Source: Ilumatobacteraceae bacterium
Lineage (GTDB): Bacteria > Actinomycetota > Acidimicrobiia > Acidimicrobiales > Ilumatobacteraceae
DNA: 52,220 bases
NCBI GenBank assembly: GCA_009694465.1
Contig: SHUW01000002.1
Coordinates: forward strand, 1-52,220
Direction of reading: 5' to 3'
Shown here piece after piece: positions 33,775 through 51,880 of this stretch (the first letter of the stretch is position 1; every line of letters starts with the position of its first letter). Under the pieces are notes generated by a model, which saw nothing but the letters and a program-made list of their open reading frames with translations, did not search any database and was not told the DNA's origin. Made by a program: the position numbers and the translations under genes.

Positions 33775-34800
33775 ATGGCTATACGACTAGATCCCGCTGA
33801 CGAATACATGCACGAACTCGGCCCCGAGTCGAACTTCAACGAAAGCATGTACATTAACTGTTTTGATCCGGTGAACAAGGTGGGTGGATGGTTCCGGATG
33901 GGCAACCGTGCCAATGAGGGCACTGCCGAGATGACAGTGTGCTTGTATCTCCCTGATGGTTCTGTGGGCTTCATGTTTAAGCGCCCAGCCATTGAGAATA
34001 ACGATCAACTCGACGCTGGTGGACTGACGTGGACGATGGTCACTCCCTTTGAAGAACTCCGTATCGATTTCACTGGCAAGGTGCTGGTCTTAGCAGAGCC
34101 CAAACAAATGGTTGATCCAAAAACTGCTTTCAAAAATAATCCTTACGCCGAATGCGAAGCGCACATCACTTTTACGGGACTCGGTCGCTCAAGTATGTTC
34201 GGCGGCGAACCTGATGTACCGCATGAAGCACCTGGTGAAGAATTCGCCCGCGGTCATTACGAACAATTGATCAAAGCCCGAGGCACTATTCGCGTCGGAG
34301 ATCAAGAATGGGAAATCAACGGCTTCGGTTTACGAGACCATTCATGGGGTCCTCGTTACTGGCAGGCCCCGTGGTACTACCGCTGGTTGACGGCCAACTT
34401 TGATGAGAACTTGGGCTTCATGATGTCGCGCGTTGCCAAGAAGGACGGACCTGGAAGCCGCGGCGGATTTGTCTGGGAAGACGGTCAGATGCATTATTGC
34501 GATCACGCCGAACTCAGCACAGTATTTGAAGGTGACGATACGTATCACAGCCACATTGAAGCGGTGTTGAGATCAAGTCGCAGCGAACGTGAATGGCGTT
34601 TCAAGGGCGATGTCATGAATTTGATTCCACTACGTAATCGTCGTCAGTCACCTGATGGTGAGTGGTTAACCACCCGCATTAGTGAGGGAATGACGCGCTG
34701 GGAAATGCTTTCCGATGAGCACAAGGGCAAAGTCGGTTACGGACTGTCTGAATATCTTGACCAAATCATCGACGGAACGCCCGTCGGCACTGCCGAATAA
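33775..34800 (+). CDS. AttH/CrtC-like (lipocalin-fold) protein, DUF7064/7065-type (putative)
   Basis: A 341-residue soluble protein of the kind annotated as hypothetical in mycobacteria and Acidimicrobiia. SMYINCFDPVNKVGGWFRMGNRANEG and the later GLRDHSWGPRYWQ, with WYYRWLTANFDENLGFMMSR, resemble the two lipocalin-like domains of the AttH/hydroxyneurosporene hydratase superfamily. The family often sits beside lipid or terpenoid genes, but no reaction is established for this subgroup. No signal peptide. Residues HSWG and the paired tryptophans are candidate pocket residues. The assignment is from memory of motif style. Confidence 0.55.
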   Translation: MAIRLDPADEYMHELGPESNFNESMYINCFDPVNKVGGWFRMGNRANEGTAEMTVCLYLPDGSVGFMFKRPAIENNDQLDAGGLTWTMVTPFEELRIDFTGKVLVLAEPKQMVDPKTAFKNNPYAECEAHITFTGLGRSSMFGGEPDVPHEAPGEEFARGHYEQLIKARGTIRVGDQEWEINGFGLRDHSWGPRYWQAPWYYRWLTANFDENLGFMMSRVAKKDGPGSRGGFVWEDGQMHYCDHAELSTVFEGDDTYHSHIEAVLRSSRSEREWRFKGDVMNLIPLRNRRQSPDGEWLTTRISEGMTRWEMLSDEHKGKVGYGLSEYLDQIIDGTPVGTAE

Positions 34801-40329: not shown

Positions 40330-41559
40330 ATGTCCGAAGCTTGGATCATTGATGGAGTTCGTAGCCCGCGCGGACGAGGCAAGGCAACAGGTTCGCTTCA
40401 TCATATTCACCCCCAAGAACTCTTGGCGCAGGTTCTCAATGCGCTTCAGAAGCGCGTCGGCTTTGATACTGCTGACGTAGACGATGTAATCATCGGTAAC
40501 GGCAACAGCGTGGGCGATCATGGGGCGTGTATCGGTCGTATGGCAGTGCTCGCTGCCGGATGGCCAGTCACTGCACCTGGCGTCACCATCAACCGCTTTT
40601 GTGGTTCTGGCCAGCAGGCGGTGACCTGGGCGGCAATGGGAGTTCAGGCTGGACACCAAGACCTCGTCATCGCTGGTGGAGTCGAGTCAATGTCGCGTTG
40701 GCCCGCACCAGACGGCGCACCAGACTTCACCTCAGGAAACGCTGCTCTCCGAGAAATGTTTCCCATGGTCCCGCAAGGTATTTCTGCGGACTTGATCGCC
40801 ACCATCGGTGGTTTTACGCGCGCTGATGTCGACGAGTTGGCTTTCATCAGCCAACAACGCGCCGCAATTGCTCAGGCGGAAGGCCGTTTTGATCGCAGCA
40901 TTATTCCAATCCTCAATCCTGATGGAACCGTTGCATTAGCCAAAGATGAACACCTGCGCCCTGAGACCACAAGGGAATCTCTAGCCGGTCTCTCAGCCTC
41001 ATTTGAGCGCCTCGGTGCGCACAAGTTTGCCGAGTTTGACAGCACATTTGATGAGATGTGCCGACAGGTCTATCCCGAAATCAGTTCTGTTGATCATGTT
41101 CATCATGCCGGCAACTCCTCAGGTGTCGTTGATGGCGCTGGAGCGATCATGATCACTAGTCCCGAATATGCCAAGGCTCACGGACTCAAGCCGCGCGCAA
41201 GAATCATCATGTCAGCAGTTGCTGGAGCAGAACCAGTGATCATGCTCACCGCACCAGCGCCAGCGTCAAAGAAATGTCTTGAGCGTGCCCGAATGACTAC
41301 CAAGGATATTGACCTGTGGGAAATCAATGAAGCCTTTGCAGCGATCCCACTACGCGCCATGCGCGAACTGGGAATCACCAATGAGAATGTCAATGTCAAT
41401 GGCGGTGCTATCGCTCTTGGTCACCCGATTGGTGGCAGTGGCGCAATGCTGATGCAGACCGCACTGGACGAACTTGAGCGTCAAGATAAGCAGACCGCAC
41501 TCATCACGATGTGCACCGGTGGCGGCATGGGAACAGCCACCATTATTGAACGCATGTAG
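40330..41559 (+). CDS. Acetyl-CoA acetyltransferase (thiolase)
   Basis: Thiolytic cleavage or condensation of acyl-CoA, 409 residues. [19 protein letters not shown] holds the nucleophilic Cys, [15 protein letters not shown] the NEAFA motif, [18 protein letters not shown] the GHP histidine, and [14 protein letters not shown] the second active Cys. The ribosome site AAGGAG is 7 nt upstream. It sits at the edge of a catabolic block with acyl-CoA dehydrogenase and SDR genes, so degradation is more likely than synthesis. Confidence 0.95.
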
Positions 41560-41565
41560 TAGCAA

Positions 41566-42735
41566 CTATTCGCGCGGCAAGCCAAGAACTCTTTCGCCAA
41601 CAATGTTTCGTTGAATTTCTGTTGAACCCGCATAAATCGTATGTGCTCGGCTGAATAAGAAGGTGTGCTGGAAATCGTGCACTATTGAGCCTTCATCATG
41701 CATGATCAAAGCATTTGCCCCAAGTAAGTCAACTTCTAATTCACCGAGGCGTTGATGCCATTTCGACCAAAACAATTTGCCGATGGAGCCTTCAGGACCT
41801 GGCTGTCCCCCGTGCATAAAACGCGTCACGTTTCGCAAACCTGACCAACGCATAATTTCCAGTTCGCCGTAAGCGCGTGCAAGTCGTTGTCGCACCTCAA
41901 GATCATCGGCGAGACCCTGTTGCACGGCCAAGGCACGCACATTTTCAAATTCTTTAGCGAAACGTAATTGCTGGGCCATAAACGCAGTACCGCGTTCAAA
42001 GCCAAGGGTCCCCATTGCGGTCTTCCAGCCATTACCGCGTCCACCCACGACCATGTCCGCAGTCGTCGTGGCACCAGTAAAGAAAACTTCACAGAAATGA
42101 TCATTGCCCGAGAGATCTTTTAACGGCCGAACCTCAACCCCTGGCTGATCAATCGGCACCAGCAAATACGACAATGCTTTGTGGGCTTTTTCTTCAAGTT
42201 CGGTGCGACACAAAACAAAAATCCATTGCGCAAATTGGGCTTGGCTGGTCCACACCTTTTGACCGTCAATCCGCCATGTGTCGCCATCGAGAACTGCTGT
42301 GGTGCGAACTCCCGCTAAATCCGAGCCAGCACCAGGCTCGCTGAATCCCTGGCACCAATATTCGTCGCCACGCAAAATGGGAGGCAAGAACCTGGCTTGC
42401 TGTTCGGGCGAACCAAAGGTGATCAGAGTCGGTCCAAGCAAACCTTCGCCAAAGAATCCAGCTCTTTGAGGACCATTGGCCAAGGTGTACTCCTGGGCGA
42501 AAACCAACTCTTCGGCAACAGAGGCTTCTCTTCCTCCAAAAGCCTTGGGCCATGTCAAACCCAACCAGCCAGCGCGACCGAGTTCTTGCTCCCATGCCAC
42601 CCGCACATGCCAGTCGTGCGCACCCATTTCCGCCGAGGTACCAAGGCGGCGATAGTCGCCCACGAGGGTGCGGTTCAACCACTCGCGTACTTCATGGCGA
42701 AATTGGCTCGCCTCGGCCGACTCAGAAAACTCCAT
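41566..42735 (-). CDS. Acyl-CoA dehydrogenase
   Basis: FAD-dependent acyl-CoA dehydrogenase of 389 residues. WCQGFSEPGAGSDLAGVRTT and RIDGQKVWTSQAQFAQW form the core; RAHTIYAGSTEIQRNIVGERVLGLPRE is the C-terminal signature. FWSKWHQRLGELEVDLLG is like mycobacterial FadE enzymes. The start is ATG 42735, one codon after the GTG in the track. It ends 6 bp from the convergent thiolase and is divergent from an SDR, so it is the lone gene of its transcript. Confidence 0.92.
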   Translation of the reverse strand: MEFSESAEASQFRHEVREWLNRTLVGDYRRLGTSAEMGAHDWHVRVAWEQELGRAGWLGLTWPKAFGGREASVAEELVFAQEYTLANGPQRAGFFGEGLLGPTLITFGSPEQQARFLPPILRGDEYWCQGFSEPGAGSDLAGVRTTAVLDGDTWRIDGQKVWTSQAQFAQWIFVLCRTELEEKAHKALSYLLVPIDQPGVEVRPLKDLSGNDHFCEVFFTGATTTADMVVGGRGNGWKTAMGTLGFERGTAFMAQQLRFAKEFENVRALAVQQGLADDLEVRQRLARAYGELEIMRWSGLRNVTRFMHGGQPGPEGSIGKLFWSKWHQRLGELEVDLLGANALIMHDEGSIVHDFQHTFLFSRAHTIYAGSTEIQRNIVGERVLGLPRE

Positions 42736-42786
42736 CACTTAGTTTCGCCTGAAAGGTCCCTGTCGGTGAAATCGGGGCTTGAGGTC

Positions 42787-42792
42787 TAGGGT
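42787..42792 (+). promoter_or_regulatory. Putative leaderless -10 box of the SDR at 42800
   Basis: TAGGGT ends 7 nt before ATG 42800 and no ribosome site is present. It fits the TANNNT pattern and supports ATG 42800 over the track start. Confidence 0.35.
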
Positions 42793-42799
42793 CATTGAT

Positions 42800-43585
42800 A
42801 TGGCGTCACCCAATTCCCCAGATTTATTTGATCTCACTGGTCGTACCGCTCTCATCACAGGTGGAAGTCGTGGGCTGGGTAAAGAGATGGCGCTCGCCTT
42901 CGCCCGCCAAGGCGCAGAGATCATGATCGCCAGTCGATCCATCGAGTCCTGCCAAGAAACAGCCGCCGAGGTCTTTCAAGAAACAGGTCGCCGTTGTATT
43001 CCATACGCCTGCCATGTGGGCCGCTGGGACGAACTTGAAGGTTTAGCAGATGCTGTTTGGAATGAATTTGGAGGCCTTGACATCCTCGTCAATAATGCTG
43101 GCAAATCTCCGTTGTACGACAAGGTCGTCAATGTCAACGAGCAGATGTGGGATTCGGTCATTGGTATCAATCTCAAGGGACCCTTTCGTCTCACAGCGTT
43201 ACTTGGGACGCGGATGAGCGAACGGGCCATGCACCTAGGACGCAGTGCTTCAATCATCAATATCTCAAGCGTCGCCGCAATTCACCCAACGCCAGATGTC
43301 ATTCCCTACACCGCCGCCAAGGCAGGGCTCAATGCCATGACGATCGGATTTGCTCAGACATTAGGACCTCATGTCCGCGTCAACTGCATCATGCCGGGCT
43401 CGTTTCGCACCGACATTAGTAAGGCATGGAACTGGGACCTCGTTGATCAAGGAATGAAACGCATCGCCATGAAACGCGTTGGTGAACCCCACGAAATTGT
43501 CGGTGCTGCATTATTCTTAGCCAGCGATGCCAGCAGTTATATGACGGGTTCCGTTTTCACCGTTGATGGTGGTATTCCTACATGA
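42800..43585 (+). CDS. SDR family oxidoreductase
   Basis: A 261-residue classical short-chain dehydrogenase. TALITGGSRGLGKEMALAFARQG is the cofactor motif, NNAGKSPLYDKVV follows, the catalytic Ser is in NISSVAAIHPTPD and the Tyr-Lys in PYTAAKAGLNAM; the C-terminus MTGSVFTVDGGIP is typical. The Ser-Arg after GG suggests NADP preference. The track adds seven upstream codons. It is followed 31 bp later by an NTF2-like gene with its own ribosome site. Confidence 0.9.
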   Translation: MASPNSPDLFDLTGRTALITGGSRGLGKEMALAFARQGAEIMIASRSIESCQETAAEVFQETGRRCIPYACHVGRWDELEGLADAVWNEFGGLDILVNNAGKSPLYDKVVNVNEQMWDSVIGINLKGPFRLTALLGTRMSERAMHLGRSASIINISSVAAIHPTPDVIPYTAAKAGLNAMTIGFAQTLGPHVRVNCIMPGSFRTDISKAWNWDLVDQGMKRIAMKRVGEPHEIVGAALFLASDASSYMTGSVFTVDGGIPT

Positions 43586-43616
43586 TTTGTTTGAACTCCG
43601 ACAAAAGGACAGTGCC

Positions 43617-44000
43617 ATGGCTCTGACGCCCGAAGAAAAACTTGACCATCAACGGCGCTTCGCCGAAGCAACGAATACAAGCCGACCAGATATCACTATG
43701 GCGATGTGTGTTCCCGGTGCATTGGTGTGGCATAACTTTGATGACAAATCCATCCCCTACGAGGACACTGGCAAGACCTTGACACGGATGCACGCGATGA
43801 TTCCCGATTTACGTTGGGAAACACGCAGCGTTGTGATCACCAGTGACGGCTGGATCTGGCAAGCGGCAATCATGGGAACAGCACCTGGCGGTCAATTATG
43901 TGCCCATTCCTGCATGGTCGTGACTCTGAACGATGACGGACTGATCACCAAACTGGATGAATACCTCGACCCAGCGCAAATGGCACCGCTGCGCAGTTAA
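43617..44000 (+). CDS. NTF2-like / SnoaL-type protein
   Basis: A 127-residue protein of the cone-shaped NTF2 fold. VPGALVWHNFDDKSIPYED, then LTRMHAMIPDLRWETRSVVI, GQLCAHSCMVVTLNDDGLITKLDEYLDPAQM have the usual SnoaL order. Members are isomerases, cyclases, dehydratases or simple binding proteins, often with His/Asp in the pocket. ATG 43617 has AAAGGA upstream. It is cotranscribed with the SDR and ends 3 bp from the convergent hydroxylase gene, so it may take part in the same catabolic block. Confidence 0.8.
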   Translation: MALTPEEKLDHQRRFAEATNTSRPDITMAMCVPGALVWHNFDDKSIPYEDTGKTLTRMHAMIPDLRWETRSVVITSDGWIWQAAIMGTAPGGQLCAHSCMVVTLNDDGLITKLDEYLDPAQMAPLRS

Positions 44001-44003
44001 CCG

Positions 44004-45155
44004 CTACTTGTCAGCGAGTAAAACTGCTCCATAACGGTCAAGTGATTGATTCGACGCCACGAGATGTTGTGCGGAGCCTTGCGCATCTCTCAAGCATCGT
44101 TGCAACGGACTTGAGTTAAACAATGCGCCAGCGCCTGCAAAACTCATCAGGCGGGAAATTGCAGAGACTGCAGTCTCGGTGCAATACGCAGTCATGGCAG
44201 CGACCGCTGCTTCATCTCTAGCGGTGAATTCATTGCCATTTTCCATGGCATCGTCAACCGTTGCAAGAGTTGCGAGTGCATGAGCTTGCACGGCCTGTAG
44301 TTGTTGTGAACTCTTCCCGAGTTCATATTGAAAGGCGCCGCGATCTGCAAGCCGCCCGTCAAAACCTCGCGATTTACCGCGCGCATAGACAACAAGTTCA
44401 TCGATGAATCGGTTGCACACACCAAAGGTAAAACCAAGATTCTCGCCAGCAACAAAGATTGTGTAATTCAAGCCATAGATTGCCCCACCACGTTTTGCTG
44501 GTTCCATCGGGTCCACTGTTAATGCTGTCGGAACAAAGACGTCTTTCGCAGTGATTGACACGCTCCCGGTTCCCTTGAGTGCCATCACATTCCAGTCACC
44601 ATGCACCGTCGCATCTGCTGTACGAATAACTGCGAGAGTGACGGTGGGTTGCTCGACAGCTTCAATTGCAGTCAACATGGCCCAGTCGGCGTGGCGAACC
44701 CCACTCGCATAATTCCATGTGCCATTCATCAACACCCCGCCGTCGACACGAGTAAAGGTTCCTGTCGGTAGCGCCACAGCAGCTAGGAAAGGCGACGGGT
44801 CAGAACCAAACAGCAAGTCAATCCCCTCATCGCTGAGACGTGACCCCGCTGCAGCTGCCGCACCTGCATGGTTAAATCCAGTCCATGCTGCCGTCGGATT
44901 TGAATAACTCAAGGCGGTGAAATAGCGACATTGATCGGCCAACAACAGGCGATCGCCACCGACTTCAAGTGGCGCCTTAATCATCGGCACGCGTATCTGC
45001 CGCATGAGATCTACTAACGCTTGTGGAGCATCACCCAGTTCTTCGGACTCCGCTGCAGTGGCATCAAACTGCGAATGCAGGGCAGAAATTTCATCAACTA
45101 ATTGTTCAATTGATCGAGCCGCCTCATGTGCAACCCGTGTTGTCATCGTTGTCAT
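44004..45155 (-). CDS. HsaA-like flavin-dependent monooxygenase (acyl-CoA dehydrogenase fold)
   Basis: Probable oxygenase component of a two-component aromatic hydroxylase, 383 residues. Unlike true acyl-CoA dehydrogenases it has MNGTWNYASGVRHADWAML, WNVMALKGTGSVSITAKDVFVP and a C-terminal SRLMSFAGAGALFNSSPLQRCLRDAQGSAQH, the pattern of HsaA and related group D hydroxylases. The enzyme would need reduced flavin from a reductase such as HsaB, which is not in the window. ATG 45155 has AAGGAG 7 nt upstream and shares a base with the SDR stop (TAATG). Last gene of the ring-cleavage operon. Confidence 0.82.
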   Translation of the reverse strand: MTTMTTRVAHEAARSIEQLVDEISALHSQFDATAAESEELGDAPQALVDLMRQIRVPMIKAPLEVGGDRLLLADQCRYFTALSYSNPTAAWTGFNHAGAAAAAGSRLSDEGIDLLFGSDPSPFLAAVALPTGTFTRVDGGVLMNGTWNYASGVRHADWAMLTAIEAVEQPTVTLAVIRTADATVHGDWNVMALKGTGSVSITAKDVFVPTALTVDPMEPAKRGGAIYGLNYTIFVAGENLGFTFGVCNRFIDELVVYARGKSRGFDGRLADRGAFQYELGKSSQQLQAVQAHALATLATVDDAMENGNEFTARDEAAVAAMTAYCTETAVSAISRLMSFAGAGALFNSSPLQRCLRDAQGSAQHLVASNQSLDRYGAVLLADK

Positions 45156-45934
45156 TAGAACACTCCTTCGTAACTGCCACCATCAAGTTGCAGATTTTGA
45201 CCACTGATATATCCCGCTTGAGCAGCACACAGAAATGCAAAAGCATCACCAAATTCCTCGGGGCGACCGAGTCGTCCGGCCTTGATTGAGGCAATTTGTT
45301 GGGCTCGGGCTTCTTCGTAGGTGATGCCTAAAATCTTCATTGCCACATGTGCCATTTGTTCTTGACGAGCGGTGTCAAATCTCTCGGGCAAAAGTTGGTT
45401 AACGGTGACGTTGTATTTGGCAAGATCCTTAGAGAGTCCCTTGAGCACGCCAGTCAAGCCAAGACGGGTTCCGTGCGACAGACTCATCAGCGAGTTGGGT
45501 GATTTCACCATCGCCGAACTCACCGCCACGATACGACCGAAACCGCGATCTCTCATGCCAGGGACAACACGTTGCAGAAGTGCTAGCGGCCCCGTCAGCG
45601 CTTGACGCACGGCACTATCCCAGTCTTCGCTTTCGATGTCAAGAAAGGCTTTAGGAGATGGTCCTTGGCCATTCAACAAAACAATGTCTGGTTCAGGGCA
45701 GGCAGACATGAGTTCATCTTGCACACTCGCCATCGCCGAATCACCCACAACTCCACGCGCCTCAACGCGATAAAGAGACGTGAGTTGCGCGACTGCTTCG
45801 TCAACGTCTGCGCTTGTACGACCATTGATGACAACGTTGGCTCCTTCGCGAGCAATGCTTTGCGCACACGCCCACCCGAGCCCACGACTTGAGCCAGACA
45901 AGATAGCCCAACGACCTTTTATTCCCAGGTCCAT
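45155..45934 (-). CDS. SDR family oxidoreductase (catabolic operon)
   Basis: A 259-residue short-chain dehydrogenase. WAILSGSSRGLGWACAQSIAREG is the cofactor motif, VVINGRTSADV suggests NADP binding, VLLNGQGPSP replaces the common NNAG with LNGQG, the Ser is in VAVSSAMVKSPN, and the normal catalytic Tyr position reads SLSHGTRLGL, where no Tyr-x-x-x-Lys is apparent. That makes it an atypical SDR, perhaps with altered chemistry. GYISGQNLQLDGGSYEGVF is the usual C-terminus. It is the third gene of the operon. Confidence 0.85.
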   Translation of the reverse strand: MDLGIKGRWAILSGSSRGLGWACAQSIAREGANVVINGRTSADVDEAVAQLTSLYRVEARGVVGDSAMASVQDELMSACPEPDIVLLNGQGPSPKAFLDIESEDWDSAVRQALTGPLALLQRVVPGMRDRGFGRIVAVSSAMVKSPNSLMSLSHGTRLGLTGVLKGLSKDLAKYNVTVNQLLPERFDTARQEQMAHVAMKILGITYEEARAQQIASIKAGRLGRPEEFGDAFAFLCAAQAGYISGQNLQLDGGSYEGVF

Positions 45935-45941
45935 CGCCGTG

Positions 45942-46898
45942 TTACTTCAGTCCGCTTGCTTGGCGACCAGCCACAATTGCTGGAATATCAGATGGCGCGA
46001 AGAACTCTTCTGGCGGATCTTTTGGACCCCATACCGAAAAACCAGCAGGTCCATCTTCACCTTCCCAATCGAGACGGCAATGATCGCGGTCCCAACCTTT
46101 TTCATCAATGATCTGATCCATATCAGAGAAAAATTCAAACATATTGCCCGAAGGATCGCGTAAGTACCAAAACACATTCGCCCCAAGATTGTGACGGCCA
46201 ACACCGATAATGCTGGAAACTCTTTCGTCTTTCAATGCGGATGTTCCCGCTAATCCCACGGCATCAATGTCGTCAACTTCAACTGCATAATGATTGAGAT
46301 ATGAGGTGGGGCCAGGTTGAATCATCAAGTTGTGGTGATCCGACTCAACGCGCATGAAAGTCGCAAAACCTTTCATGATTTGGTCAGAGACACGGTAGCC
46401 CAGAACATTTAAGTAAAAGTCCGTCGCTTCGACAAGATGGGGTGTACCGAGAACAACGTGACCGATCCGGCGCACAATGGGAGATTCAGTATGTAACACC
46501 GCATCTGCACGAGTATCAATACGATTTTGTTGGCCAGGACCATTGAATGCCCTGGACTGTGTCGGCGTGAGCGGATGCGGTGAACCAACATCAATGACAA
46601 TCGCGTGGCCGAAGATTGGGTCAACGCATCGCAATGTTGTGCTGTCGAAAGTGGATGTGACTCCAGCATCTGTCAGGCGCTTTGCGATCGCAGCGATGTC
46701 CGACTCATTCTCACAACTGAGATGCATGGAAGAAAGATGGCGATACGGCGCCTCTGCGAGATTCATTTGCACTGGTCGATCGGGTGTGCCAAGGACACCA
46801 TCAGCCGTCGCGTTCATTCCATGCTGCAACCAGAACTCAAAAAGTTCTTGCGGGTTCGGCACCGATATTTGAATATCCAATAATCCGTTGAGCGCCAT
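45942..46898 (-). CDS. Two-domain extradiol ring-cleavage dioxygenase (VOC superfamily)
   Basis: Predicted Fe(II) catechol-type dioxygenase, 318 residues with two VOC modules. The first is MALNGLLDIQISVPNPQELFE; the catalytic second module has metal ligands His in RRIGHVVLGTP, His in SYLNHYAVEVDD and Glu in GNMFEFFSDMD. These three match the type I extradiol facial triad. The ATG at 46898 lies 2 bp after the FAH-family stop; the track adds 13 codons inside it. Aromatic substrate unknown, with HsaC/BphC-like catechols the likeliest type. Confidence 0.87.
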   Translation of the reverse strand: MALNGLLDIQISVPNPQELFEFWLQHGMNATADGVLGTPDRPVQMNLAEAPYRHLSSMHLSCENESDIAAIAKRLTDAGVTSTFDSTTLRCVDPIFGHAIVIDVGSPHPLTPTQSRAFNGPGQQNRIDTRADAVLHTESPIVRRIGHVVLGTPHLVEATDFYLNVLGYRVSDQIMKGFATFMRVESDHHNLMIQPGPTSYLNHYAVEVDDIDAVGLAGTSALKDERVSSIIGVGRHNLGANVFWYLRDPSGNMFEFFSDMDQIIDEKGWDRDHCRLDWEGEDGPAGFSVWGPKDPPEEFFAPSDIPAIVAGRQASGLK

Positions 46899-46900
46899 GT

Positions 46901-47764
46901 TTATGCCCCTTTCGCATAGTCGCTGACACGGCGGCAATGATTGACCATTGTGCCGAGACCAGAGATTGTTGTTGTTATCACATCTCCATCTTTGAGAAAG
47001 TTTCCGGTTGCTGCGCCAACACCATCTGGCGTGCCAGTGAAGATGATGTCCCCCGGAGTCAGCGTGGTCACTTGCGACAAGTATGCAATCAGCGTCTCCA
47101 CATCAAAGATCAAGTTTCTTGTGCTGTCCTTCTGGCGAATTTCACCATTAATTTCAGTGACTAGGTGAAAATCATTGAGATCAGAGAAATGGTCGGTTGA
47201 GTAGATGAATGGCCCGATTGGTCCAAACGTATCGAAGGATTTTCCTAAGTCAAAGTGGGGAGGTTGGGCCGCGAACTGCACAATCCGATCTGAAATGTCT
47301 TGGCCGATCGTGACCCCAGCAACATGGTTCCAGGCATTGTCTTTCTTAATATCCTTGCCACCAACTCCGATCACGACCACCAGTTCAACTTCGTAGTCAA
47401 CACCATCAGATCGCATCTCAATATCTGAATGTGGGCCGACCAAGCAGGACGGAAACTTTGTAAATACCAAAGGGTTAGTGGGGAGTTGCATTTTTGATTC
47501 CTCGGCATGACTCTTGTAGTTCAGTCCGATGGCAAAACAATTTTTCGGCCGAGGAACTGCAGCGCCAATTGTTTCAGCAGCTACTCGTCCCGTCGGTGTC
47601 GCATCTTTTAGGAGACCAGAGAGTCGGTGCAGAAGATCGCAGTTTGCCAAAGCATCCATTGGGTCACTTGACAAAGCCCCATTGCTCAAGGTTTGCACAT
47701 CAAAGTAAAAATCCTCCAGAACCAAGACGGAGCGGTCGTTGATATTTCCGAGGATAAAGGTCAC
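46901..47764 (-). CDS. Fumarylacetoacetate hydrolase family protein
   Basis: Likely hydrolyses or decarboxylates the ring-opened product or isomerises a 2-oxo intermediate, 287 residues. The core is FAIGLNYKSHAEES, then DYEVELVVVIG holding the two metal-binding Glu residues, VAGVTIGQDISDRIVQF and DIIFTGTPDGVGAATGNFLKDGD. The GTG start has TAGTAT 6 nt upstream and TTGACA 18 nt further, a clear promoter. First gene of the ring-cleavage operon, divergent from marR. Oxaloacetate decarboxylase activity is a family alternative. Confidence 0.88.
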   Translation of the reverse strand: MTFILGNINDRSVLVLEDFYFDVQTLSNGALSSDPMDALANCDLLHRLSGLLKDATPTGRVAAETIGAAVPRPKNCFAIGLNYKSHAEESKMQLPTNPLVFTKFPSCLVGPHSDIEMRSDGVDYEVELVVVIGVGGKDIKKDNAWNHVAGVTIGQDISDRIVQFAAQPPHFDLGKSFDTFGPIGPFIYSTDHFSDLNDFHLVTEINGEIRQKDSTRNLIFDVETLIAYLSQVTTLTPGDIIFTGTPDGVGAATGNFLKDGDVITTTISGLGTMVNHCRRVSDYAKGA

Positions 47765-47770
47765 AAGAAG

Positions 47771-47800
47771 ATACTACGGTATCAAACTATTTGATGTCAA
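47771..47800 (-). promoter_or_regulatory. Strong promoter of the ring-cleavage operon (leaderless)
   Basis: On the minus strand TTGACA (47800-47795), an 18-nt spacer, TAGTAT (47776-47771) and 6 nt lead to GTG 47764. It is the closest match to a consensus sigma-70-type promoter in the window. Confidence 0.65.
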
Positions 47801-47802
47801 AT
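47781..47802. promoter_or_regulatory. MarR-type operator: two overlapping palindromes
   Basis: ATCAAACTATTTGAT (47781-47795) is a perfect palindrome with 6-bp arms around CTA. ATTTGATGTCAAAT (47789-47802) is a second, with a 2-nt centre, sharing the TTTGA half-site. The first fills the promoter spacer of the FAH operon; both precede marR. TTGA/TCAA half-sites are common for MarR proteins. Binding by the neighbouring MarR is inferred. Confidence 0.6.
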
Positions 47803-47809
47803 GATCTGT

Positions 47810-47815
47810 TAGTGT
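47810..47815 (+). promoter_or_regulatory. Putative -10 box of marR
   Basis: TAGTGT ends 6 nt before ATG 47822. Its -35 region would fall on the palindromes, so marR is probably autoregulated. Confidence 0.4.
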
Positions 47816-47821
47816 GAAGTT

Positions 47822-48316
47822 ATGGATATGTCGGAACTCGTTAAAGACACCATCAGGACCTGGACAGCGGAACGACCGGACCTTGATTTCACCGCTATGT
47901 CAACTGCCCTCAAACTCAATCTGCTGGTGGACAAGACATTCCAATCAATCAACAAGCACATGCTTGAACTGGGTCTCACTCTCGGCGAATTTGATGTCCT
48001 GGCGACCTTACGGCGACACGGCAAGAGTGGGGTCTTGATGCCGACCGAGATCGCTGGTTTCGCCATGATTTCGCCAAGTGGACTCACTAATCGGCTCACT
48101 CGGTTAGAGAAAATGGGCCACATCGATCGCCTCAGCGACCCCAATGATCGCAGGATCTCTCTCGCTCGACTCACCGCCAAAGGTCGCAAGGTTGCCGATT
48201 TGGGCATCAGTTTCGCTTCCTCTCACTCAACAGAAATGATGGGTCGCGTGGATCCCCGAGACCTAACAGTTTTCAATAAGGTCATCGAGCAGATGATGAG
48301 ATCCGTCGAAGAATGA
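47822..48316 (+). CDS. MarR-family transcriptional regulator
   Basis: A 164-residue winged-helix repressor, dimeric. LGLTLGEFDVLATLRRHGKSGVLMPTEIAGFAMISPSGLTNRLTRLEKMGHIDRLSDPNDRRISLARLTAKGRKV covers the helix-turn-helix and wing, including the DxRxxxxxLT motif (DPNDRRISLARLT). It lies head to head with the ring-cleavage operon, sharing a 57-bp intergenic region with a palindromic site, so the usual model is repression relieved by an aromatic ligand. The following 126 bp to the chorismate mutase gene has no convincing gene. Confidence 0.92.
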   Translation: MDMSELVKDTIRTWTAERPDLDFTAMSTALKLNLLVDKTFQSINKHMLELGLTLGEFDVLATLRRHGKSGVLMPTEIAGFAMISPSGLTNRLTRLEKMGHIDRLSDPNDRRISLARLTAKGRKVADLGISFASSHSTEMMGRVDPRDLTVFNKVIEQMMRSVEE

Positions 48317-48442
48317 CCCACACTGGGGCGGTCGCAGTCACGCGCATAGTGAGCCCACAAGGTGCTTCACGTCAGAGTCTCAGAAATCTCATACGGGAAA
48401 CAACAGACTCCAGTCAGGTCCGAGGCACTACCGTTAAGGGTG

Positions 48443-49261
48443 ATGTCCACGCCCGTCTCCCCCGGATCAACAAACCAGCCCTCGCCGGCCTTAGCGGCTC
48501 TGCGTCAGCGCATCGATGAACTTGATCGTCAACTACTAGACATTCTTGCTCAGCGTCTTGAAACCTGCCATGAGGTTGCACGCATCAAGGAACATAGCGA
48601 TACTCCGATTATTCAACCTGATCGAGTGCGCGAAGTTGTCACCAGTCGTCGTCAATACGCCATCGACAGATCAGTTGACCCAGACTTTGCGGAGGACATC
48701 ATGCGCGTCGTCCTCGCTGAAACTCACCGCATCGAAATCGCTGGTCGTCGCACCGATGCTGCTCCTGAGAAGAGCGCTTCACCTGAAGGAACAAGATCTG
48801 CGATCGACACAGTCTCCACTCGCGTCGACCATGTAGTCATCGCAGTGGAGAATTTGTCCACAGCAGTTGACACCTTCACCCAAAACCTCGGATTCCATCT
48901 TGAACATCCGTCCAATAGCCACCCGGGCATCGCTGTCATCGCCGCTGGTGGTGTCACCCTTGTTTTAGTTGGGCCCGAAGCGGGACCCCAAGTGGCCGCC
49001 CACATCGCCCATCACGGCAGTGGAATCCACCACATTGCCATTGAAGTGCTGAACGCTAGTTACACCCACGCCACATTAAATAGCACGAGTTCTGCGCTCT
49101 CGCCGATCGTCACCGATATTGTCACCGATGACCATGGGCACGAACAGTTCTTTACCCTGCGCGACCCCGCCTCGGGAGTTCAATTAGGTTTCATCGCTCG
49201 TACTGGGCATCGCGTGGGCGTGGCGACACAAAATATCCTTGAGGGCTTCAAAAGCTCGTAG
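48443..49261 (+). CDS. Chorismate mutase (AroQ) fused to a VOC domain
   Basis: A 272-residue fusion. Residues about 17-98 are an AroQ-type chorismate mutase: LRQRIDELDRQLLDILAQR, VARIKEHSDTPIIQPDRVREVV, with the expected Arg and Lys residues in place. After a 25-residue linker, residues 127-253 form a VOC module pair: VDHVVIAVENLSTAVDTF with His130 and GIHHIAIEVLNAS with His196/197. The third acidic ligand is missing: GVQLGFI has Gly where epimerase and HPPD-like proteins have Glu. ATG 48443 is chosen; AAGGG lies only 2 nt before GTGATG. Function of the fusion unknown. Confidence 0.78.
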   Translation: MSTPVSPGSTNQPSPALAALRQRIDELDRQLLDILAQRLETCHEVARIKEHSDTPIIQPDRVREVVTSRRQYAIDRSVDPDFAEDIMRVVLAETHRIEIAGRRTDAAPEKSASPEGTRSAIDTVSTRVDHVVIAVENLSTAVDTFTQNLGFHLEHPSNSHPGIAVIAAGGVTLVLVGPEAGPQVAAHIAHHGSGIHHIAIEVLNASYTHATLNSTSSALSPIVTDIVTDDHGHEQFFTLRDPASGVQLGFIARTGHRVGVATQNILEGFKSS

Positions 49262-49384: not shown

Positions 49385-51880
49385 ATGACGCGCCAGCGCA
49401 TTGATGTCCAACTTGGTGATTTCGGTGATCCCCGAAATACCATCACCCAACCCAGTGATCTTCCAACTGATCTTCGTGATTTGATTGATACCCCGCTTGA
49501 CCAACTGATGGCACGCGCACGGGAGATACGAGATCAACGCCACGGCACACGCATCACCTTCTCCCCGAAAGTCTTTATTCCCTTGACCATGCTGTGTCGC
49601 GATAGTTGTGGCTATTGCACCTTTGCTCAGCCACCAGCACGTCTGGAAAGCCCATTTTTGTCGCCCGAACAAGTACTGAAAATAGCCAAGCAAGGAGCGC
49701 GTAACGGTTGCCACGAAGCGCTTTTTACTTTGGGCGAAGCCCCTGAAGAAAAATATCAAGTTGCGCGTGATTGGCTCACCGAGCATGGCTACGCATCAAC
49801 GATCGAATACCTCGTGGCAATGTGCAAGTTAGTACTTGAAGAAACTGGACTACTCCCCCACGCCAACGCTGGAGCATTGAGCAAAGAAGAACTTGCGAGT
49901 TTGCGACCCTTCTCGCCGAGCCAGGGAATGATGGTGGAAACATTGCGTCATGATTTGGCCTGTCATCGTGGCGCCCCCGACAAAGACCCAGAACGCCGTT
50001 TGGCAACGCTCAACTTTGCTGGAGAATTGCATATTCCGTTTACGACTGGGATTTTGGTCGGCATCGGCGAAACACGCGCCGATCGCATTGCTGCCCTCGT
50101 TGCGATTCGTGATTCACACCAAGCACACATGGTCAATGGGCGCGGGCATGTGCAAGAAGTGATCGTGCAAAACTTCTTACCTAAACCCCGCACCGGCATG
50201 CAACACGAAGACGCCTGCCCGACCGACGAGTTCTTATGGTCGATTGCCGTGGCGCGCATCATCTTGCCACCCGACATTCATCTTCAAGCCCCACCAAACC
50301 TCAGCGACGACTTCGCTCCCCTACTTGATGCCGGTATTGACGACTGGGGTGGGGTTTCGCCTGTGACCGCTGATCACGTCAACCCAGAACGCCCGTGGCC
50401 TGACCTTGATATTCTCCGAACCGTTACCGAGTCTCGGGGTCTAGTTTTGGCGCCGCGACTCACCCTGTACCCCGAGTACATCGTCAGTACGCCACACAGT
50501 CTCTCCCTTGACACGGCACGCCGTTTCAATCCTGCACAAAATCCATGGATTGATGTGAATCTGCGCTTTCCGATTCTCGATCGTTGCGACGCCGAAGGAC
50601 TGGGACGCGATGATCCTGGCGCCGTGTGGCCAGAGAAGGTGACTGCTGCTGACGTCGTTCTCGACGGTGCTGAAGTGGTACTTGTCGGTCATCGTTCGAC
50701 TCAGTGGTACAGCGGAAGCAATAACAAGCCGCCCTTAATCATTGGCGCAAGAAATGACACATCGCTGAACCCCAAATCGCGAGTTGGTGAAATTATTGCT
50801 GGTCATCGCTCCGGTCAAGAACTTGGCGAACAGGAGATCATTGACTTGTTTCGTGCCCGTGGGCCTGAGGTTTTGGCGATTGCTGAATACGCCGATTATC
50901 TCCGCGAGATGACGGTTGGCGATCAGGTCACGTGGGTACATAACCGCAATATCAATTACACCAATGTCTGCACCTTCAAATGTAAGTTTTGTGGATTCTC
51001 TAAGGGTCCACTATCGCTGAACTTGCGCGGTACGCCGTATCTCTTAACTCTTGATGACATTGCTCAACGAGCTGTTGAAGCATGGAACATGGGGGCTACT
51101 GAGGTCACCTTGCAAGGTGGAATTCACCCAGATTTTGATGGTGATTACTACTTGCATGTGACTCAAGCAGTCAAAGATGCAGTCCCTGAAATGCATGTCC
51201 ACGGATTCACGGCATTGGAAATTACCGAGGGTGCGAAGCGCAATGGTGAAGACTTACACACCTATCTGACCAAGATGAAGAAAGCGGGACTGGCATCGTT
51301 GCCTGGAACCGCTGCAGAAATTCTTGACGATGAGGCACGCGCCGTGCTGTGTCCCGACAAGGTCAATACCGAAGAGTGGCTTGAATGTCACCGTGTTGCC
51401 CACGAAATAGGCCTGCACTCCAACATCACCATCATGTACGGAAGTGTTGAGCATCCAGAACATTGGGCGCGACATATGATCCGTACCCGCGATTTGCAAA
51501 AGATCACCGGTGGATTCACTGAATTCATTCCTCTGCCGTTCGTGCACATGGCATCGCCGATCTATCTACAAAAGCGTTCACGGCGCGGACCGACCTTCCG
51601 TGAGACGATTTTGATGCATGCCATTGGCCGCATGGCCTACCACGGACTGATTGACAACGTTCAGGTCAGTTGGGTGAAAATTGGCGTCGAAGGTGCCCGC
51701 CAATTATTGCGCTCAGGCTGCAACGACATCGGTGGAACTTTGATGGATGAAAACATCAGCCGTGCTGCAGGGGCCAATCACGGTCAGAAGATGAGTGAAG
51801 ATAGTTTTCAGGCTTTGGTGGCACCACTCGGACGAAAACTCACCCAGCGAAATACTGCCTACGCTTTACTTACGCCCTAG
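49385..51880 (+). CDS. fbiC: F420 synthesis protein FbiC (fused CofG-CofH FO synthase)
   Basis: Makes FO (7,8-didemethyl-8-hydroxy-5-deazariboflavin) from tyrosine and a riboflavin precursor by two radical-SAM halves, 831 residues. The CofG half has CRDSCGYC (Cys71, 75, 78); the CofH half has CTFKCKFCGF (Cys529, 533, 536). Family landmarks include EALFTLGEAPE, VQNFLPKPRTGM and LQGGIHPDFDGDYY. The fused form is typical of actinobacteria; archaea and some others use separate proteins. ATG 49385 has AAGGG upstream. The 3' end overlaps the convergent ribF by 11 bp. Confidence 0.96.
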   Translation: MTRQRIDVQLGDFGDPRNTITQPSDLPTDLRDLIDTPLDQLMARAREIRDQRHGTRITFSPKVFIPLTMLCRDSCGYCTFAQPPARLESPFLSPEQVLKIAKQGARNGCHEALFTLGEAPEEKYQVARDWLTEHGYASTIEYLVAMCKLVLEETGLLPHANAGALSKEELASLRPFSPSQGMMVETLRHDLACHRGAPDKDPERRLATLNFAGELHIPFTTGILVGIGETRADRIAALVAIRDSHQAHMVNGRGHVQEVIVQNFLPKPRTGMQHEDACPTDEFLWSIAVARIILPPDIHLQAPPNLSDDFAPLLDAGIDDWGGVSPVTADHVNPERPWPDLDILRTVTESRGLVLAPRLTLYPEYIVSTPHSLSLDTARRFNPAQNPWIDVNLRFPILDRCDAEGLGRDDPGAVWPEKVTAADVVLDGAEVVLVGHRSTQWYSGSNNKPPLIIGARNDTSLNPKSRVGEIIAGHRSGQELGEQEIIDLFRARGPEVLAIAEYADYLREMTVGDQVTWVHNRNINYTNVCTFKCKFCGFSKGPLSLNLRGTPYLLTLDDIAQRAVEAWNMGATEVTLQGGIHPDFDGDYYLHVTQAVKDAVPEMHVHGFTALEITEGAKRNGEDLHTYLTKMKKAGLASLPGTAAEILDDEARAVLCPDKVNTEEWLECHRVAHEIGLHSNITIMYGSVEHPEHWARHMIRTRDLQKITGGFTEFIPLPFVHMASPIYLQKRSRRGPTFRETILMHAIGRMAYHGLIDNVQVSWVKIGVEGARQLLRSGCNDIGGTLMDENISRAAGANHGQKMSEDSFQALVAPLGRKLTQRNTAYALLTP

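Follow-up and report, generated by a model that had tools for sequence, protein, structure and literature searches.

Gene layout and conserved operon types

The window, i.e., the whole 52,220-nucleotide stretch analyzed here, is one entire contig (SHUW01000002.1) from an Ilumatobacteraceae bacterium (assembly GCA_009694465.1) whose parent genome of 1.48 Mb is 69% complete. It contains four tightly linked genes on the minus strand, coding for a member of the fumarylacetoacetate hydrolase (FAH) superfamily, an extradiol dioxygenase of the vicinal oxygen chelate (VOC) fold, an atypical short-chain dehydrogenase/reductase (SDR), and a flavin hydroxylase, with a gene for a MarR-family regulator diverging from them (Table 1). 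An earlier note, made from the DNA letters alone, had described them as a candidate aromatic ring-cleavage operon with a complete hydroxylate/cleave/hydrolyse set and a divergent MarR. Coordinates and Pfam families agree with its four-gene line-up: consecutive genes are separated by 2, 7, and −1 nt, and the MarR gene starts 57 nt from the GTG of the FAH gene. The functional description is supported by family models, conserved active sites, and predicted folds.

Table 1. Genes and control elements of the operon in the window.
Feature	Position	Strand	Details
FAH-superfamily hydrolase	46901–47764	−	GTG start, 287 aa; Pfam PF01557 FAA_hydrolase 216 bits
Two-domain type I (VOC) extradiol dioxygenase	45942–46898	−	ATG start, 318 aa; Pfam Glyoxalase/dioxygenase 62 bits
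Atypical SDR	45155–45934	−	259 aa; Pfam adh_short_C2 109 bits
Group D (acyl-CoA-dehydrogenase-fold) flavin hydroxylase, oxygenase component	44004–45155	−	383 aa; Pfam Acyl-CoA_dh_2 75 bits
MarR-family regulator, divergent	47822–48316	+	164 aa; Pfam MarR 46.8 bits
Probable promoter, TTGACA-N18-TAGTAT	47771–47800	−	10/12 matches; conserved in 15 loci
Palindrome GACATCAAA-TAG-TTTGATACC, probable MarR operator	47778–47798		in promoter spacer; consensus GACATCAAANNNTTTGATGTC

The order dioxygenase-SDR-hydroxylase recurs in many related genomes and strong purifying selection acts on the operon genes (dN/dS 0.04–0.08; against the relative L052, 0.04 for the SDR, 0.07 for the dioxygenase, and 0.04 for the hydroxylase), which argues against a chance arrangement; the operon is real and conserved, and probably functional. 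The full order with the FAH gene at its head was recovered in the window and in its closest named relative, an 'acIV' actinobacterium bin (L050) with a 98% identical dioxygenase. These two constitute type A of the related operons, in all types of which (A–D) the MarR gene diverges in the same orientation. Type B lacks the FAH gene and ends in a class A flavin monooxygenase (MarR/dioxygenase-SDR-hydroxylase-monooxygenase; L051–L063), type C combines a flavin monooxygenase and a protein with a phosphoenolpyruvate (PEP)-utiliser domain with MarR/dioxygenase-SDR-hydroxylase, at times alongside an MFS gene (L064–L073), and type D has the arrangement MarR/FAH-dioxygenase-SDR-class A flavin monooxygenase (most of L074–L087). 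The type C protein of 555–557 aa, known only by its C-terminal PEP-utiliser mobile domain, stands beside the MarR and FAD monooxygenase genes (L064:1867–3537, L025:12727–14400, L031:7386–9053); on the Rhodococcus plasmid pLW3, too, a gene for a PEP-utilizing enzyme lies next to one for a group D hydroxylase-like protein.

Predicted enzymes and their active sites

By its fold and metal site the second protein of the operon is a two-domain VOC-fold type I extradiol dioxygenase, for which ring cleavage is predicted. The intact metal triad reported in the earlier note (H147/H203/E255, a 2-His-1-Glu site) is invariant across 43 aligned homologues, as are the second-shell residues H189, H236, and Y245, and the AlphaFold model (mean predicted local distance difference test score [pLDDT] 92) finds its best Foldseek matches in 3B59, AphC, HsaC, and BphC. 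In a tree with HsaC, BphC, HpaD, and XylE as references (HcdB, IppB, FdeC, and IfcB were not among its sequences), the enzyme belongs to a 29-row clade of its own (support 99/98), which is joined by a single Achromobacter sequence (96/86) and stands apart from HsaC/BphC (100/100) and from HpaD (100/98); several proteobacterial dioxygenases in the tree lie on long branches and their placement is uncertain. MhpB has a different fold and hence cannot enter this tree. The comparison with HsaC and BphC proposed earlier thus places the dioxygenase in a separate, FAH-linked clade, whose members come from freshwater Acidimicrobiia and cultured actinobacteria and mostly have FAH and flavin-hydroxylase genes as neighbors. 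In a set of 45 dioxygenase loci flanked by ≥3 kb on each side, which are not independent of each other, the genes within 4 kb include a flavin hydroxylase in 36, an FAH in 29, and the atypical SDR in 18, with the FAH gene immediately upstream of the dioxygenase in 24.

The AlphaFold model of the hydroxylase (pLDDT 90) matches best, in Foldseek searches, XiaF, the Rhodococcus RHA1 structure 2OR0, HsaA, Rv3094c, and C2-HpaH; on the strength of these matches the modeled fold places it among the group D flavin monooxygenases and not the acyl-CoA dehydrogenases. Its top NCBIfam models are the HpaH oxygenase and HsaA, both under their equivalog cut-offs. The position that it occupies in types A–C is taken in type D by a class A FAD monooxygenase (PF01494; MhpA/RdmE-like). 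This exchange marks the slot as one of predicted ring hydroxylation, and is the best evidence for the group D protein being a ring hydroxylase.

The first gene product is an FAH-superfamily member with the FAA_hydrolase domain, the Glu/Glu/Asp metal site, and the His/Glu lid dyad all present: the residues E125, E127, D156, and K175 and the lid dyad H86/E89 are kept in 69–75 of 74–75 homologues. With 6V77, a 'putative HpcE', as its closest solved structure (223 bits), it is predicted to act as a C-C hydrolase or as an isomerase/decarboxylase on a ring-cleavage product.

The SDR keeps the Gly-rich NAD(P)-binding motif, and an alignment of 61 homologues revealed that it lacks the classical Ser-Tyr-Lys catalytic set: the catalytic Tyr is replaced by Ser and the Lys by Arg (motif LSHGTR). 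As each substitution is found in 58 of these homologues, which come from several phyla and share a conserved LPERxDT motif, this is an established non-canonical family and not a decayed gene. Its closest solved structures are 5VPS/5IDX (217 bits). In Caballeronia, Bradyrhizobium, Rhodococcus BG43, and Caulobacter, family members adjoin a dioxygenase or an FAH gene, and in Thioclava one lies near an hpaD gene. In the dioxygenase tree the partners in BG43 and Bradyrhizobium are HpaD-like; with partners spanning different ring-cleavage lineages, the SDR appears to go with the pathway and not with one dioxygenase lineage. No characterized homologue was found in the literature on atypical SDRs, pRLCBG43, or orcinol/trihydroxytoluene. 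On that plasmid of R. erythropolis BG43 (L044, 6295–14259) the SDR gene lies in a cluster with genes for a flavin reductase, a group D hydroxylase, an HpaD-like VOC protein, two FAH proteins, and an MhpA-like hydroxylase; we found no publication on this cluster.

Mosaic ancestry and a shared control region

The genes of the operon differ in their closest relatives. The dioxygenase, SDR, and hydroxylase of the window are 81–91% identical to those of type B, whereas its MarR is just 42–49% identical to the type B regulators; relative to the type D loci L082/L083/L086, the MarR is about 70% and the FAH 76–78% identical. In phylogenetic trees the window dioxygenase and SDR fall with their type B counterparts (SH-aLRT 99), and its FAH and MarR lie within type D (98 for each); holding the window together with the type D subset was rejected for both the dioxygenase (p=2 × 10⁻⁷⁴) and the SDR (p=1 × 10⁻⁹⁰). 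The DNA aligns with that of the type B locus L052 continuously from the start of the dioxygenase gene to the end of the hydroxylase gene at 80% identity; the 44-nt leader is 86% identical, and the FAH gene sits exactly between this leader and the dioxygenase start. The simplest account of these sequence relationships is a mosaic in which a MarR-FAH pair of one type was joined to the dioxygenase-SDR-hydroxylase genes of another, the two meeting at the FAH/dioxygenase boundary. Had FAH instead been retained in the window by vertical descent and lost from types B and C, the FAH and MarR of the window would be expected to fall outside type D; as both nest inside it, we prefer joining by recombination.

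An intergenic block with the consensus TTTGACATCAAATAGTTTGATGTCGTACTAT is shared by 15 loci. The palindrome in it (0 expected in shuffles) has 9-bp arms overlapping the spacer of the probable promoter, and the window copy, two mismatches away from a perfect palindrome, is the sole site in the source genome at ≤2 mismatches. It is probably the operator of the MarR protein, which in turn is probably a local repressor. With the −10 box ending only 6 nt ahead of the FAH GTG, the operon transcript is probably leaderless. The mosaic origin, the conserved promoter/operator, and the recognition of the SDR as a conserved non-canonical family recurrent near meta-cleavage genes are all additions to the earlier note.

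Candidate pathway, alternatives, and flanking genes

Taken together, we consider it fairly probable that this is a MarR-controlled catabolic operon for a phenolic compound, with group D hydroxylation, extradiol ring opening, and FAH action on the product. The group D hydroxylase, drawing its reduced flavin from a reductase whose gene lies elsewhere, would place a hydroxyl on the phenolic ring; the dioxygenase would then open the ring beside a hydroxyl, and the FAH protein would cut (or isomerise/decarboxylate) the β-diketo-type cleavage product to small acids. As an FAH stands in for the HsaD/BphD-type hydrolase, the ring that is cleaved probably bears an extra oxygen (i.e., is trihydroxylated, as in hcdABC). 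For the SDR-fold protein the likely role is in processing a keto/enol intermediate, perhaps not as a dehydrogenase of the classical sort. MarR probably binds the palindrome within the spacer of the promoter and keeps the genes repressed until it is released by a compound of the pathway. We agree with the earlier note that the substrate cannot be inferred.

Published systems offer precedents for such a combination. In the hcdABC operon of Pseudomonas mandelii 7HK4, acting on 7-hydroxycoumarin/dihydroxyphenylpropionate, a flavin hydroxylase generates a trihydroxylated ring that is opened by a type I extradiol enzyme, and the product is hydrolysed by an enzyme of the FAH family; this FAH is inactive on ordinary catechol cleavage products and active on that of the trihydroxylated ring (PMC6222606). 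Compared by enzyme kind, hcdABC resembles the window in uniting these three activities in one operon lacking an HsaD-type hydrolase, but differs in its class A hydroxylase (HcdA), gene order, lack of the atypical SDR, and phylum. Similarly, the ipp cluster of Rhodococcus sp. D-6 for 2-isopropylphenol (PMC12442392) has an HsaA-like group D oxygenase, an extradiol dioxygenase, and an FAH gene in one actinobacterial cluster; unlike the window, it has its own reductase, RibBA, and acetoacetyl-CoA synthetase, a smaller BphC2-like dioxygenase, and no atypical SDR. Given these two precedents, the lack of an HsaD-type hydrolase is explained and not anomalous. Uncharacterized FAH-VOC-hydroxylase clusters of cultured actinobacteria (RHA1 pRHL2, Pseudonocardia, Geodermatophilus, and Nocardia) have a homologous FAH-dioxygenase pair (about 40% and 31–37% identity, respectively) beside a flavin hydroxylase; they mostly lack the atypical SDR, and a flavin reductase or class A monooxygenase often lies next to them. 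The SDR family itself (47–50% identity) lies beside a VOC dioxygenase in the BG43 plasmid cluster and in those of Caballeronia and Bradyrhizobium (L042, L043); BG43 and Caballeronia have an FAH as well, and BG43 additionally a group D hydroxylase with reductase, but the dioxygenases of BG43 and Bradyrhizobium differ from that of the window in being HpaD-like. The earlier note's view that the partners and order are unusual accordingly holds with respect to the Hsa and Bph operons, but not more generally, hcdABC and ipp being comparable in content. Likewise, its suggestion of an undescribed pathway needs narrowing: the general kind of pathway is known and FAH-dioxygenase-hydroxylase clusters are common in actinobacteria, whereas for this branch, its recombined make-up, and the odd SDR we found no published study.

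Several observations weigh against the proposed route or the mosaic on which its history rests. A survey of open reading frames and Pfam domains revealed no flavin reductase among the operon genes; the source genome encodes one PF01613 (flavin reductase) protein at another locus (G000:C72), but none was found in G023, a hydroxylase-bearing genome of 90% completeness. The nearest relatives, types B and C, have no adjacent FAH and carry a distant one elsewhere in the genome (45–54% identical; 45–47% in type B), and FAH may hence not be obligatory to the operon core. Further, a MarR tree uniting the window with type B was not rejected in the approximately unbiased test (p=0.17), and the literature yielded no assay of any gene from this branch.

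Among the alternatives, a hydroquinone route as proposed for ipp, in which hydroxylation occurs para to the phenolic OH, the dioxygenase opens the resulting hydroquinone, and the FAH acts further down, strikes us as rather unlikely, even if ipp combines an HsaA-like group D oxygenase, a dioxygenase opening 2-isopropylhydroquinone, and an FAH gene (PMC12442392), and even if a Pseudonocardia cluster of the present dioxygenase clade has, like ipp, ribB, a flavin reductase, a group D oxygenase, an FAH, and an acetoacetate-CoA ligase. IppB is reported to be of 211 aa and nearest to BphC2, against the two-domain protein of 318 aa in the window, whose operon is also devoid of the reductase, RibB, and ligase genes of ipp. 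A role in N-heterocycle or indole catabolism, with a XiaF/Rv3094c-like hydroxylase acting on an indole or hydroxypyridine-like ring, is suggested by XiaF being the top structural match and by other FAH-bearing clusters degrading hydroxypyridines (kpi, PMC7356986); we regard it as highly improbable, with the window hydroxylase only about 23% identical to XiaF, the kpi ring-opening enzyme unrelated to the window dioxygenase, and the MhpA/RdmE-like phenol hydroxylases of type D pointing to phenolic substrates.

Slightly more remote still is an Hsa-like or other steroid/polycyclic catabolism, in which a multi-ring substrate would have a phenolic ring hydroxylated and then opened: the two oxygenases of the operon resemble HsaA and HsaC in fold, but score far under the NCBIfam equivalog cut-offs (bits obtained/cut-off: HsaA 99/450, HsaC 51/450), and the operon has neither HsaB nor HsaD. 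The Bph biphenyl operon fares similarly (BphC 62.5/366). These scores, together with the separate dioxygenase clade, bear out the earlier distinction from both the Hsa and Bph operons. The Hpa (homoprotocatechuate) operon also has a MarR regulator, a type I extradiol dioxygenase, and an FAH enzyme, but the window operon lacks its aldehyde dehydrogenase, hydratase, and aldolase, and the Hpa models are likewise under cut-off (HpaD 59.5/321, HpaG C-terminal model 165/276, HpaR 23.5/121).

Returning to the phenolic route with FAH action, we tentatively raise a broader possibility: the SDR family might be a conserved non-redox enzyme (a tautomerase, isomerase, or hydratase) for ring-cleavage products of oxygen-rich phenolics, common to unrelated dioxygenase lineages, and the operon class a hitherto undescribed route for phenolic organic matter in lake water. 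The family spans Myxococcota, Pseudomonadota, and Actinomycetota beside ring-cleavage genes, and no report of its reaction was found. The nearest homologues come from lake-water Acidimicrobiia (acIV/Ilumatobacteraceae records), represented here solely by metagenome genomes, and the use of phenolic organic matter by such plankton is poorly known; the operon provides specific genes that can be expressed, has a defined predicted promoter/operator, and clearly illustrates how hydroxylase modules are exchanged.

Beyond the hydroxylase gene, a thiolase, an acyl-CoA dehydrogenase, an SDR, and an NTF2-like gene (40330–44000) were considered as operon members and left out, as they lie on mixed strands and two extra genes intervene in the near-identical relative L022. 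That pair (L022, 4883–8216), located between the hydroxylase and NTF2-like genes and absent there in the window, codes for a photolyase-FAD-domain protein and an NDH2-like oxidoreductase. Adjoining the MarR gene is a gene (48362–49261, plus strand) coding for a chorismate mutase type II domain (aa 47–125) fused to a VOC/methylmalonyl-CoA-epimerase-like domain (aa 154–275), and at 49385–51880 (plus strand) lies a gene for a bifunctional CofGH FO synthase of coenzyme F420 biosynthesis (983 bits; slightly below the fused-model cut-off and above both domain cut-offs). A DUF7064/DUF7065 protein is encoded at 33775–34800 on the plus strand.

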